From NCBI RefSeq assembly GCF_001420005.1, contig NZ_LJAK01000018.1, positions 1 through 39,995 on the forward strand: a DNA stretch of 39,995 nucleotides, read 5' to 3'. Positions 6,798-9,163 of the stretch are shown here, piece after piece. The translations under genes and the position numbers were made by a program. The stretch comes from Loktanella sp. 3ANDIMAR09 (GTDB taxonomy: Bacteria; Pseudomonadota; Alphaproteobacteria; Rhodobacterales; Rhodobacteraceae). Under the pieces are notes generated by a model that was not told the DNA's origin, did no database searches, and saw only the letters and a program-made list of their open reading frames with translations. The first letter of the stretch is position 1. Every line of letters starts with the position of its first letter.

Positions 6798-6910
6798 TGC
6801 TCCGTAGGTTGGTGGAAATAGAAATCATTCTTGCCCTGCGTCTTGGCGCATTTGGGCGCTGGTGGGCAGCTTCTGCTGCCCGTCGCCTTGGAAAACTTTC
6901 CGGGAGATAG
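6797..6910 (+). CDS. 37-aa basic amphipathic micro-protein
   Basis: The ATG overlaps the upstream stop (TAATG). The product starts MLRRLVEIEIILALRLGAFG and ends RWWAASAARRLGKLSGR. The hydrophobic helix with Arg clusters could lie on or in a membrane. It fills the space between two genes, and its stop is followed after 4 nt by the next start. No family known. Confidence 0.5.
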   Translation: MLRRLVEIEIILALRLGAFGRWWAASAARRLGKLSGR

Positions 6911-6914
6911 TCCA

Positions 6915-7511
6915 TTGGAAACGCGCGAATATCTTTACTGCATTGAATTGCTCGGCGGTGATGTGGCCAAAGTTGGTATCACCAACAACCCCGGCAGCCG
7001 CATCCAATCACTAATGGCGGGTTCGCCGTTCACAATGAAGTTTCGCCACCTGCTTCAATTCAGCCGCCGCGATGTGAGTTCAAGTTGGGAACGCCACATC
7101 ATTGCCAACGCGGACCCCCACAAAGGCCGAGGCGAGTGGGTGAAGTGCAACGCTAAACTTGATGGGCTTTTTGCGAAGGCTCCGGGCCGCTGCGCAATGA
7201 AGGACTTCAACATCACCGATGATGTGGGGCGCATCCCCTGCGTTATCCGGTCGGCTGAAAGCAATTCCGCAATCCTCGTTCATGGCCTTTCAATGCCACA
7301 CGGAGATCAGCCGCGTGCGCAAGACTTTGAGGGCATCGTGAGCGACTACGAACGCACCGTCATTCACGCAAGACTACGCGGCGGATACGGTGTGGAAGAT
7401 ATTCATGTGATGGATGGCCTCGCACTGGATTTAATCCGTGCAGAAATTAGCCAGCTGACACGTCGAGGAACTCTCCGTCGTGTTCTTGGATTGCGTGGTA
7501 ACGCAGCATGA
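6915..7511 (+). CDS. GIY-YIG-type protein, T5orf172/Mug113-like
   Basis: The start is placed at a TTG (6915) with GGGAG 8 nt upstream; the frame is open further back to 6831 but has no good site there. The product has about 198 aa. Residues 5-75 read YLYCIELLGGDVAKVGITNN, PGSRIQSL and SWERHII, the order expected of the T5orf172/MUG113 branch of GIY-YIG nucleases (YLY for GIY, KVGIT for YIG, then the Arg). The C-terminal part (about 130-198, DYERTVIHARLRGGYGVEDI) is helical and might be HTH-like. Likely nucleic-acid cleavage or nick processing. Substrate unknown. Confidence 0.72.
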   Translation: METREYLYCIELLGGDVAKVGITNNPGSRIQSLMAGSPFTMKFRHLLQFSRRDVSSSWERHIIANADPHKGRGEWVKCNAKLDGLFAKAPGRCAMKDFNITDDVGRIPCVIRSAESNSAILVHGLSMPHGDQPRAQDFEGIVSDYERTVIHARLRGGYGVEDIHVMDGLALDLIRAEISQLTRRGTLRRVLGLRGNAA

Positions 7512-7714
7512 CCCGCCGCATCACCATCCCGCCCGCGCGGTTCCCTATTCCGCCTGCACCCAAAGAGATGACCCGCGCGGCGCGTGTTCCGGTCGTCACG
7601 GGCAAGCCTGACGCAAGCGAAAATTCGTTGGCGTGGTTCGCCACCTCTGGTGGGTGGGGCAACAACTACGTGCCGCGCAAGTCGCGTTACGAACTGGCAG
7701 GAGATGACCTGTGA
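7508..7714 (+). CDS. hypothetical protein (68 aa)
   Basis: ATG overlaps the upstream stop (ATGA). A Pro-rich basic N-terminus (MTRRITIPPARFPIPPAP) is followed by SLAWFATSGGWGNNYVPRKS. Probably partly disordered. No domain recognised. Coupled to both neighbours. Confidence 0.58.
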   Translation: MTRRITIPPARFPIPPAPKEMTRAARVPVVTGKPDASENSLAWFATSGGWGNNYVPRKSRYELAGDDL

Positions 7715-8016
7715 AGCATTCTGATTTGCATTCGCGATTTCTTGATTGCGCAAAGCGCGGTCTAAGCAAGGCGGAAACTGCCCGTGAACTTGGCGTGCGC
7801 CCCCAGACGGTCGGGGAATGGGCGGCACGTCACAAGGTATCCTTTTGCTCTGCATCTGTCGCGTCTGGATTGACGAAAGAACAGCGCCGCGACGTTGACA
7901 CCCTTTTCTCCAAGGGCGGCTACACAATGGCCGAAGCCGTCGCAATCGTCACAGCGCCAAAGGTGAAGATCCGCGCCACCCCGCCGTCGCAGGCAATCGC
8001 GCAGGTGACGGCATGA
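7711..8016 (+). CDS. helix-turn-helix protein (101 aa)
   Basis: GTG start at 7711 with AGGAG 8 nt upstream, overlapping the previous stop (GTGA). Residues 8-45 (FLDCAKRGLSKAETARELGV, then RPQTVGEWAARHKV) form a homeodomain-like/resolvase-type HTH. A second possible HTH lies at 55-80 (KEQRRDVDTLFSKGGYTMAE). It precedes the cytosine methyltransferase and overlaps it by 4 nt, so it may control that gene or serve as a specificity/adaptor protein. Confidence 0.72.
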   Translation: MKHSDLHSRFLDCAKRGLSKAETARELGVRPQTVGEWAARHKVSFCSASVASGLTKEQRRDVDTLFSKGGYTMAEAVAIVTAPKVKIRATPPSQAIAQVTA

Positions 8017-8924
8017 CCAAGCTGCGCGTTCTCGATCTTTTCAGCGGAATTGGGGGCTTTTCTTTGGGCCTTGAGCGCACTGGCGGCTTTGAGACTGTCG
8101 CGTTCTGCGAAATTGAAGATTTCCCCCGCCGCGTGTTGGCAAAGCATTGGCCGGAGGTGCCGCAATATGACGACGTTAGAACCCTCACAGGCGCAAGGCT
8201 TGCTGCCGATGGAATTGCCGTCGATGTTATCACAGGCGGGTTCCCATGCCAAGACCTTAGCACAGCGGGACGCCAGGCTGGAATGGGTGAGGGCACCCGA
8301 AGCGGCCTGTGGTCCGAAATCGTCCGACTTATTGGCGAGTTACAACCCCGATACGTCATCGTGGAGAACGTCGCAAACCTGCTTAGTGGCCCTAGCGAAA
8401 AACGAGGCGGATGGTTTGGCCGAGTTCTCGGAGACCTGGCCGAAAGTGGGTATGATGCGGAATGGCGCAGCATACCAGCTTCCAACCTTGGCGCTTGGCA
8501 TAAGCGCGAAAGAATATGGGTCATCGCCTATCCCAACGCCGCGCAAGATAGACGGCAGGTCAGCGGGCGCGGGAACATCGGACGGTTGCCTAATCCGAAG
8601 ATCAGCGTCCAGCTTTGGGCTGAACTTGGCCGAATTTGTGCAAGTAGAGATGCGGCAACTCTTCGCAACGCCACAAGCATCGGACAATCGCGATCGGGGA
8701 AACCTGTCCAGTCCATCAGTGCAGAGGCGGCAACGCATAGGCAAGCAGTTGGGCTTGTCGCAGGTGGTATCGGATCAATCTGGCGCTCTGAACCCGACGT
8801 GGGTCGAGTGGCTAATGGGGTTCCCCAGCGGGTGGACAGACTTGGAGGGCTAGGAAACGCCGTCGTCCCGCAAATCCCCGAAATGATCGGCCACGCCATC
8901 CTTGCAGCGGAGGCCGCACAATGA
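8013..8924 (+). CDS. dcm: C5 cytosine DNA methyltransferase
   Basis: 303 aa, transferring methyl from AdoMet to cytosine C5. Motif I is DLFSGIGGFSLGLE (8-21). Motif IV is GGFPCQDLS with catalytic Cys79. Motif VI is ENV (118-120). Motif VIII is KRERIWVIAYP. The C-terminal GGLGNAVVPQIPEMIG is motif X. The target-recognition region (about 195-265) is short. Probable role: protection from host restriction or epigenetic control. No cognate restriction gene is present. A second gene is encoded inside it in another frame (8167-8853). Confidence 0.95.
   Translation: MTKLRVLDLFSGIGGFSLGLERTGGFETVAFCEIEDFPRRVLAKHWPEVPQYDDVRTLTGARLAADGIAVDVITGGFPCQDLSTAGRQAGMGEGTRSGLWSEIVRLIGELQPRYVIVENVANLLSGPSEKRGGWFGRVLGDLAESGYDAEWRSIPASNLGAWHKRERIWVIAYPNAAQDRRQVSGRGNIGRLPNPKISVQLWAELGRICASRDAATLRNATSIGQSRSGKPVQSISAEAATHRQAVGLVAGGIGSIWRSEPDVGRVANGVPQRVDRLGGLGNAVVPQIPEMIGHAILAAEAAQ
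8167..8853 (+). CDS. overprinted gene inside dcm (methyltransferase-associated phage protein)
   Basis: A 228-codon frame lies wholly inside dcm, shifted relative to it. The ATG at 8167 is preceded by GGAGGT (8153-8158), the best ribosome-binding site nearby, at 8-nt spacing. The protein (MTTLEPSQAQGLLPMELPSM) carries segments I recognise from proteins next to phage C5 methyltransferases: NPDTSSWRTSQTCLVALAKN, DGLAEFSETWPKVGMMRNGA, then AYQLP. Its end, LNPTWVEWLMGFPSGWTDLE, is equally characteristic. Recognisable sequence in both frames argues for true dual coding, not a chance ORF. Function is unknown. A target-recognition or accessory role for the methyltransferase is inference. Confidence 0.72.
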   Translation: MTTLEPSQAQGLLPMELPSMLSQAGSHAKTLAQRDARLEWVRAPEAACGPKSSDLLASYNPDTSSWRTSQTCLVALAKNEADGLAEFSETWPKVGMMRNGAAYQLPTLALGISAKEYGSSPIPTPRKIDGRSAGAGTSDGCLIRRSASSFGLNLAEFVQVEMRQLFATPQASDNRDRGNLSSPSVQRRQRIGKQLGLSQVVSDQSGALNPTWVEWLMGFPSGWTDLEG

Positions 8925-9163
8925 CCCATCACACCCATTCCGTCAGGGCCTCCCTGCTGGCGGATCGTCCGGCGTTCCTCCCAGCGCCTGACGTGACTGG
9001 CGGGGGGAGGGCATCCCACGGCTCCCCCCGCCACTTTTCTACATGGATAGACCGCGCACAGGCCCGCTACAGCGCGAACCCGTCCCACCGCAACGCCGTG
9101 GCCCTGCGTGACGCCCTGCACGAGCGTATGGCCGCTTACAACGCGGGGGCGCGTCATGAATGA
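8921..9163 (+). CDS. hypothetical protein (80 aa)
   Basis: Overlaps the dcm stop by 4 nt. The N-terminal half is loop-like; the C-terminal half (STWIDRAQARYSANPSHRNA, then VALRDALHERMAAYN) is helical and resembles small phage early proteins. The last codons overlap the DUF3310 start by 8 nt. Function unknown. Confidence 0.6.
   Translation: MTHHTHSVRASLLADRPAFLPAPDVTGGGRASHGSPRHFSTWIDRAQARYSANPSHRNAVALRDALHERMAAYNAGARHE

Follow-up and report, generated by a model that had tools for sequence, protein, structure and literature searches.

The Loktanella sp. 3ANDIMAR09 locus described here probably encodes, in one stretch of DNA, a putative two-chain C5-cytosine DNA methyltransferase, a reading to which we assign a probability of about 0.8 from sequence comparison, structural models and analogy with known split enzymes. 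The window (the whole stretch of 39,995 nucleotides that was analysed) is part of contig 18 of a 3.67-Mb genome and contains recognisable members of phage-like families, namely integrase, helicase/primase, terminase, portal, major head protein, tape measure and endolysin. Between the integrase and terminase genes lies an ORF of 303 codons (8013..8924, + strand) for the catalytic chain, hereafter alpha. Entirely within it, in the +1 frame, is an ATG...TAG frame of 228 codons (8167..8853, + strand), hereafter beta, which confirms the original prediction of a second frame of that length inside a cytosine methyltransferase; the +1 frame is already open from 8017. Both frames are open and constrained, and the boundaries of this double constraint fall at the beta start and stop. 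In the stretch that would hold the target-recognition domain (TRD), conservation is seen for beta and is weak or absent for alpha. The neighbouring ORFs 7711-8016 and 8921-9163 overlap the alpha start and stop, respectively, by 4 nt, giving a tightly packed operon, and ORF 6831-7511 has a weak match to the endonuclease family PHROG 681 (E 1.2e-4).

In the proposed enzyme, the large catalytic domain would come from alpha (frame 0), whose motifs I-VIII would bind AdoMet and carry out catalysis and which would also contribute the motif X helix at its C-terminus. The small domain, from beta (frame +1, with its own ATG and Shine-Dalgarno sequence), would consist of an N-terminal part overprinted on the middle motifs of alpha, then the TRD and motif IX. 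Ribosomes on alpha would read the DNA of the beta TRD out of frame, producing a flexible linker to motif X, and alpha and beta would assemble into a working enzyme in which beta reads the target sequence while alpha flips and methylates the cytosine. Such an enzyme would protect phage DNA from restriction. We infer the translation of beta, the heterodimer, the part of beta as specificity chain and the anti-restriction role; the N-terminal part of beta may be new sequence that forms the interface.

Alpha carries motifs I-VIII of the C5 methyltransferases, with the catalytic Pro-Cys and the Glu-Asn-Val. PF00145 matches its residues 5-177 (E 1e-39) and PHROG 363 matches it with an E value of 2e-79. 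The best solved relative is M.HhaI, which aligns with residues 1-176 and is also the top Foldseek match of the alpha model (E 1e-12). Pro-Cys-Gln (residues 78-80, 8244..8252, + strand), which we take to be motif IV, and Glu-Asn-Val (residues 118-120, 8364..8372, + strand), presumably motif VI, are invariant in a 55-sequence alignment, and the DNA of the latter falls within the stretch coding for the beta signature SSWRTSQ. The main frame had been claimed to keep all C5 motifs to its end, and this did not hold: the Pfam, PDB and profile matches of alpha all end at residues 173-177, and beyond them only motif X is recognisable, as GNAVVPQI (8853..8876, + strand; we take GNAVVPQ to be motif X), whose first base is the last base of the beta stop codon. 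This segment is conserved in the 55-sequence alignment. In the AlphaFold model of alpha the catalytic domain is largely confident, residues 213-271 have a pLDDT below 50, and the C-terminal helix (residues 287-302) is confident. Alpha resembles the single-chain PF00145 enzymes in that its first 176 residues align with M.HhaI; it differs from them in that neither a TRD nor motif IX can be recognised in the frame of its catalytic motifs.

Beta is matched by PHROG 1008, a family labelled 'DNA methyltransferase' (E = 3e-24), and a tblastn search with it (E <= 1e-5) retrieved 93 phage records, including many mycobacteriophages that are nearly identical; Pfam and NCBIfam gave no match to beta at E <= 1. 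A signature seen in the alignments, FSETWPKVGMMRNGAAYQLP (8425..8484, + strand), lies opposite alpha residues 138-157. Beta as a chance open frame is rejected on the basis of synonymous shuffles of alpha that kept protein and codon usage, in which the 228 codons stayed open in 27 of 5000 cases (mean 3.9 stops), and of the third-position test and stop counts given below. The predicted ribosome-binding site GGAGGT is present at 8153..8158 (+ strand), 8 nt upstream of the ATG, and start signals recur when loci are compared. In a set of 131 non-redundant loci, 101 have an ATG placed -1 to +2 codons from the beta start in the window (84.2 +- 4.7 by shuffle), 74 have such an ATG combined with an upstream Shine-Dalgarno-like 4-mer (24.4 +- 4.0 by synonymous shuffles), and 29 have GGAGG (5.4 +- 2.1 by synonymous shuffles). 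These signals support independent initiation of beta over frameshifting. AlphaFold of beta alone gave a mean pLDDT of 58 and a pTM of 0.23, too poor for showing a TRD fold; a chain folding on its partner could give such a model, which is proof of nothing.

The C-terminal part of beta can be read through fused enzymes. In three of these, from mycobacteriophage Yorick, Nocardiopsis (L259) and a Ca. Megaera plasmid (L192), the segment LNPxWVEWLMGFPxGW, corresponding to the beta C-terminus, stands in the main frame immediately upstream of motif X, and for this reason we regard the beta segment LNPTWVEWLMGFPSGWTDL (8788..8844, + strand) as motif IX. Alignment of the segment with the fused enzymes by hhalign gave an E value of 5.7e-10 over 23 columns; with four canonical enzymes the result, although pointing the same way, was not significant (E 0.17). 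Since the variable beta stretch is placed upstream of motif IX, it is read as the TRD, with approximate limits at residues 120-207 (8524..8787, + strand); between motifs VIII and IX, the usual place of a TRD, beta is strongly constrained and alpha weakly or not. The sequence evidence supports both the dual coding and the earlier suggestion of a methyltransferase subunit or specificity factor. The fused forms suggest either a single-frame ancestor or later re-fusion. Separately encoded homologues, by which the original prediction was to be judged, exist in part, as the motif IX segment in fused main frames and as partly overlapping second genes (Catdawg); among the homologues examined, a full-length beta encoded wholly apart from alpha was not found.

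To measure selection, each substitution in 46 independent pairs was classed by what it changes in the two frames, and the sites were counted likewise (bootstrap 95% ranges in parentheses); the ratios are dNN/dSN for alpha and dNN/dNS for beta, at an identity mask of 0.7 or a looser mask of 0.55. At mask 0.7, the region before beta gave 0.06 (0.04-0.09) for alpha and 0.92 (0.67-1.26) for the beta frame, and the N-terminal overlap gave 0.19 (0.17-0.22) and 0.55 (0.50-0.61). In the TRD the values were 0.79 (0.50-1.29) for alpha and 0.19 (0.12-0.33) for beta, from 32 pairs with data, much of the stretch being too divergent to count. Motif IX is constrained alike in both frames, with 0.37 (0.28-0.51) for alpha and 0.38 (0.26-0.56) for beta, and after the beta stop the ratios were 0.12 (0.07-0.18) and 0.60 (0.39-0.96). 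The unused frame ranged from 1.05 to 2.21 over all regions and from 1.5 to 2.2 inside the overlap, with 1.68 in the TRD. At the looser mask the TRD gave 0.66 (0.53-0.82) for alpha and 0.32 (0.21-0.46) for beta; because of this value of 0.66, and because the cassette similarity of alpha is above that of the unused frame (see below), some weak alpha constraint in this stretch is likely. Purifying selection thus acts in both frames of one DNA stretch, as in an overprinted pair. The claim that both frames are conserved stands, on the PHROG 1008 match, the tblastn relatives and these ratios, and the synonymous-site check that had been proposed with it places constraint in both frames, mainly the alternate one in the TRD stretch, and not in the dcm frame only.

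Because the beta-frame ratio after the beta stop is below 1, a third-position test that does not carry this bias was added; the N-terminal beta ratio of 0.55 overlaps the post-stop range, so that the case for this part of beta rests on the third-position and stop tests. The former covered 286-390 distant pairs per region outside the TRD, with each locus in at most 6 of them. The identity of alpha third positions was 0.344 before beta (0.336 after synonymous shuffling of both genes), 0.493 in the N-terminal overlap (0.337 shuffled), 0.570 at motif IX (0.321 shuffled) and 0.305 after the beta stop (0.312 shuffled); the extra constraint on alpha third positions starts and ends with beta. In the N-terminal overlap, 294 of 390 pairs also showed greater similarity in the +1 than in the +2 frame, compared with 92 of 384 before beta. 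Stops were counted over an interval fixed by alpha (residues 55-253), usable in 63 of 80 loci, the remaining 17 being left out. The beta frame held 9 stops there against 356.4 expected from alpha-synonymous shuffles, and it was stop-free in 55 of the 63 loci against 0.1 expected, whereas the unused +2 frame held 534 against 522.8. Beyond the limits of the overlap, stops in the +1 frame exceed the expected number, with 192 against 142.8 before beta and 144 against 86.0 after it. The counts 'no stop in 87/87' and '0/116 alpha stops' are true by construction, the spans having been taken from open ORFs, and are not evidence. A shuffle z-score was dropped as proof for the N-terminal part of beta: beta exceeded all 60 shuffles in 63 of 64 cases, and a third-frame control was nearly as high (61 of 64).

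The pair is widespread. In IMG/VR, beta has at least 595 relatives, and each of the 80 best loci selected in this way has the pair in the +1 relation. As this set had been chosen by beta, viral loci were also selected by alpha, and here too, for the 80 best of at least 599 alpha relatives, every locus has a beta match in the +1 frame, which counters the selection bias of the first set; 30 of these loci carry an alpha identical to one in the beta-selected set and 50 do not. Of the 80 alpha-selected loci, 67 have a beta match that covers the profile up to its motif IX end and 13 have one that stops short of motif IX; alpha reaches motif X in 78. Omitted from the counts were 3 of 90 loci (L001, L005, L006), whose alpha ends before motif X, and 4 of 190 sequences (L180, L182-L184), with one match or none. 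Beta also has 391 relatives in bacterial genome contigs, many of them metagenome bins; the 80 best of these again all have the pair in +1, and the median overlap of the alpha and beta profile matches is 637.5 nt. The record titles name alpha-, beta- and gammaproteobacterial groups, Actinomycetota, Bacillota, Flavobacteriales, Nitrospirales, Gemmatimonadetes, Verrucomicrobiales, Planctomycetota, Myxococcales and Patescibacteria. More distant phage C5 methyltransferases were represented by 8 of 40 'spread' rows; 3 of these have the pair (L274-L276), in one (L281) the beta match is confined to the N-terminal part and weak (36 bits), and in 4 (L277-L280) a beta match is absent.

The TRD varies between loci in a way that looks like the exchange of recognition cassettes, as judged from the sequences. 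In 28 locus pairs, not independent of one another, in which the first 330 nt of the overlap have an identity of 90% or more, the TRD is less than 60% identical in 21, and 18 of those 21 return to an identity of 80% or more in the motif IX part. Where otherwise distant loci share a TRD cassette (55 independent pairs), the amino acid identity is 0.58 for beta, 0.26 for alpha and 0.27 for the unused frame; these pairs were picked by beta similarity, so that the unbiased comparison is the one of alpha with the unused frame. In a reciprocal test, from which 15 of 131 loci were left out, the 66 codons that precede motif IX were similar in 437 of 4753 pairs for beta, 73 for alpha and 32 for the unused frame, which places alpha slightly above the unused-frame background. 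It is an even call whether the pair represents a large class of C5 methyltransferases, ancient and shared by phages and bacteria, that keeps the whole TRD in a second frame of the catalytic gene. In such a class cassettes could be changed without breaking the catalytic chain, because alpha would read that DNA as a tolerant linker; they could be exchanged, lengthened or repeated, and overprinting would serve as an evolvable specificity slot.

It could be argued that alpha is a complete enzyme with a short TRD of its own and that beta is an accessory or regulatory protein, modulating alpha or competing at the target. Alpha does reach motif X, its C-terminal EPDVGRVANGVPQRVDRL is conserved in a part where both frames are constrained (0.37 for alpha, 0.38 for beta), and its cassette similarity is slightly above that of the unused frame (73 and 32 of 4753 pairs); the fused relative Yorick, moreover, retains an alternate-frame ORF bearing the beta N-terminal signature. 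We nevertheless consider this unlikely, given that alpha is no more alike than the unused frame in shared cassettes (0.26 vs 0.27), that its TRD stretch is modelled as disordered, and that, on reading the codons, the conservation of alpha at motif IX follows in large part from the codons of beta.

Still less probable is that programmed frameshifting joins both frames into one long chain, with no independent initiation of beta. A single shift would give a complete enzyme in Catdawg-type loci, whose second ORF, in the +1 frame, holds TRD, IX and X, and fused forms do exist (L007, L259, L192), but two shifts would be required for motif X in loci of the window's type, and the beta ATG with its Shine-Dalgarno-like 4-mer is present in 74 of 131 loci when 24.4 are expected. 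That the alternate frame is conserved as a by-product of alpha conservation or RNA structure, beta not being a protein, we regard as very improbable: the extra constraint is confined to the limits of beta, only the beta frame avoids stops (9 against 356 expected, with 534 against 523 in the unused frame), the unused frame has ratios of 1.5-2.2 in the overlap, and a beta match is wholly absent in the 4 of 8 distant phage enzymes mentioned above. These points outweigh the facts that alpha conservation by itself gives some alternate-frame similarity, the beta profile scores of shuffled sequences averaging about 15-90 bits with most at 40-70, and that the third frame likewise exceeded the shuffles.

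The two-chain enzyme favoured here can be compared with known split systems. The two genes of M.EcoHK31I overlap in different frames. This enzyme (YGGCCR) is described as naturally split (PMC3439449); by the published account, M.EcoHK31I and M.AquI are both two-polypeptide C5 enzymes, the large chain of M.EcoHK31I having motifs I-VIII and X and a predicted TRD, and its small chain only motif IX (PMC3404938). The same account assigns the specific DNA contacts of C5 enzymes to the small domain, which holds the variable region and motif IX (PMC3404938). The window pair is like M.EcoHK31I, so described, in having motif X on the large chain and, through the fused relatives, motif IX on the small chain; it differs in that the window TRD is constrained chiefly in the small-chain frame, whereas the predicted TRD of M.EcoHK31I is on the large chain, and it sits among phage genes. 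M.AquI (CYCGRG) is likewise described as a naturally split C5 enzyme, with motif IX and a portion of the variable region on its small chain (PMC3404938), but there motif X is also on the small chain, while in the window it is on alpha, starting at the beta stop codon. Dual coding had been expected to be unusual, which holds in part: a two-polypeptide precedent with motif IX on the small chain is on record in M.EcoHK31I (PMC3404938), and within this family the overlap is found in 80 of 80 best loci per scan. M.EcoHK31I is the nearest precedent; new here are the breadth, the assignment of the TRD to beta and the apparent exchange of TRDs inside double-coding DNA. Among the open-access papers retrieved, no title or abstract opening describes such an overlap.

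Annotation often passes beta over. In Paenibacillus phage Arcticfreeze, gp56 and gp57 are nested ORFs, both annotated as 'DNA cytosine methyltransferase', that match the alpha and beta profiles; where a study of 48 P. larvae phage genomes lists DNA-cytosine methyltransferase genes, the overlap is left uncommented (PMC6070908). Among 14 annotated records with the pair or a fused form, both ORFs are annotated in 3 (Catdawg, Lymara and Arcticfreeze), part of beta in 2 (Mwe-JY08 and Jumbo) and no beta in 9. If our reading is right, records with a single 'DNA cytosine methyltransferase' can miss the specificity chain and so mislead methylome prediction and cloning, because alpha alone is predicted to be inactive. 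A same-strand overlap of about 645 nt (median), found in phage contigs and many bacterial groups, has a clear biochemical read-out, and it suggests how two selection pressures can share DNA, one frame tolerating linker-like sequence where the other needs diversity.

Several loci depart from the arrangement in the window. In Corndogvirus Catdawg (gp6/gp5, L001), as in L005 and L006, the second ORF has TRD, IX and X and overlaps alpha only partially; this split looks like that of M.AquI and may be an intermediate. In L166 the alpha frame is broken and motif X continues in the beta frame, and in L233 and L265 alpha is split by a stop codon; all three are decaying or re-fusing copies. Two overlapping alpha/beta pairs stand in tandem in L214 and L249, one of each two being a weaker match. 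The Loktanella genome itself has a second C5-methyltransferase ORF (L186, G000:C25 near 6860-7168) with a long +1-frame ORF, FWPTPT and a weak beta match of 27 bits, and the overlap may therefore extend to further methyltransferase families. Paenibacillus plasmid pAP1 (L190:947-1798) and Arthrobacter phage Lymara (L005:1447-2988) have beta ORFs with several LWPTP/LLPTP repeats before motif IX, possibly multi-TRD, multi-specific enzymes, and the linker of the L190 alpha is long and repetitive. Finally, L180:1-1329 is a 443-codon open frame with no alpha match, whose C-terminus, QTP...LNPEFVCWLMGFP, resembles the beta TRD and motif IX; its N-terminal part is, we presume, reminiscent of an HNH nuclease, and the product is possibly a nuclease that shares the recognition module.
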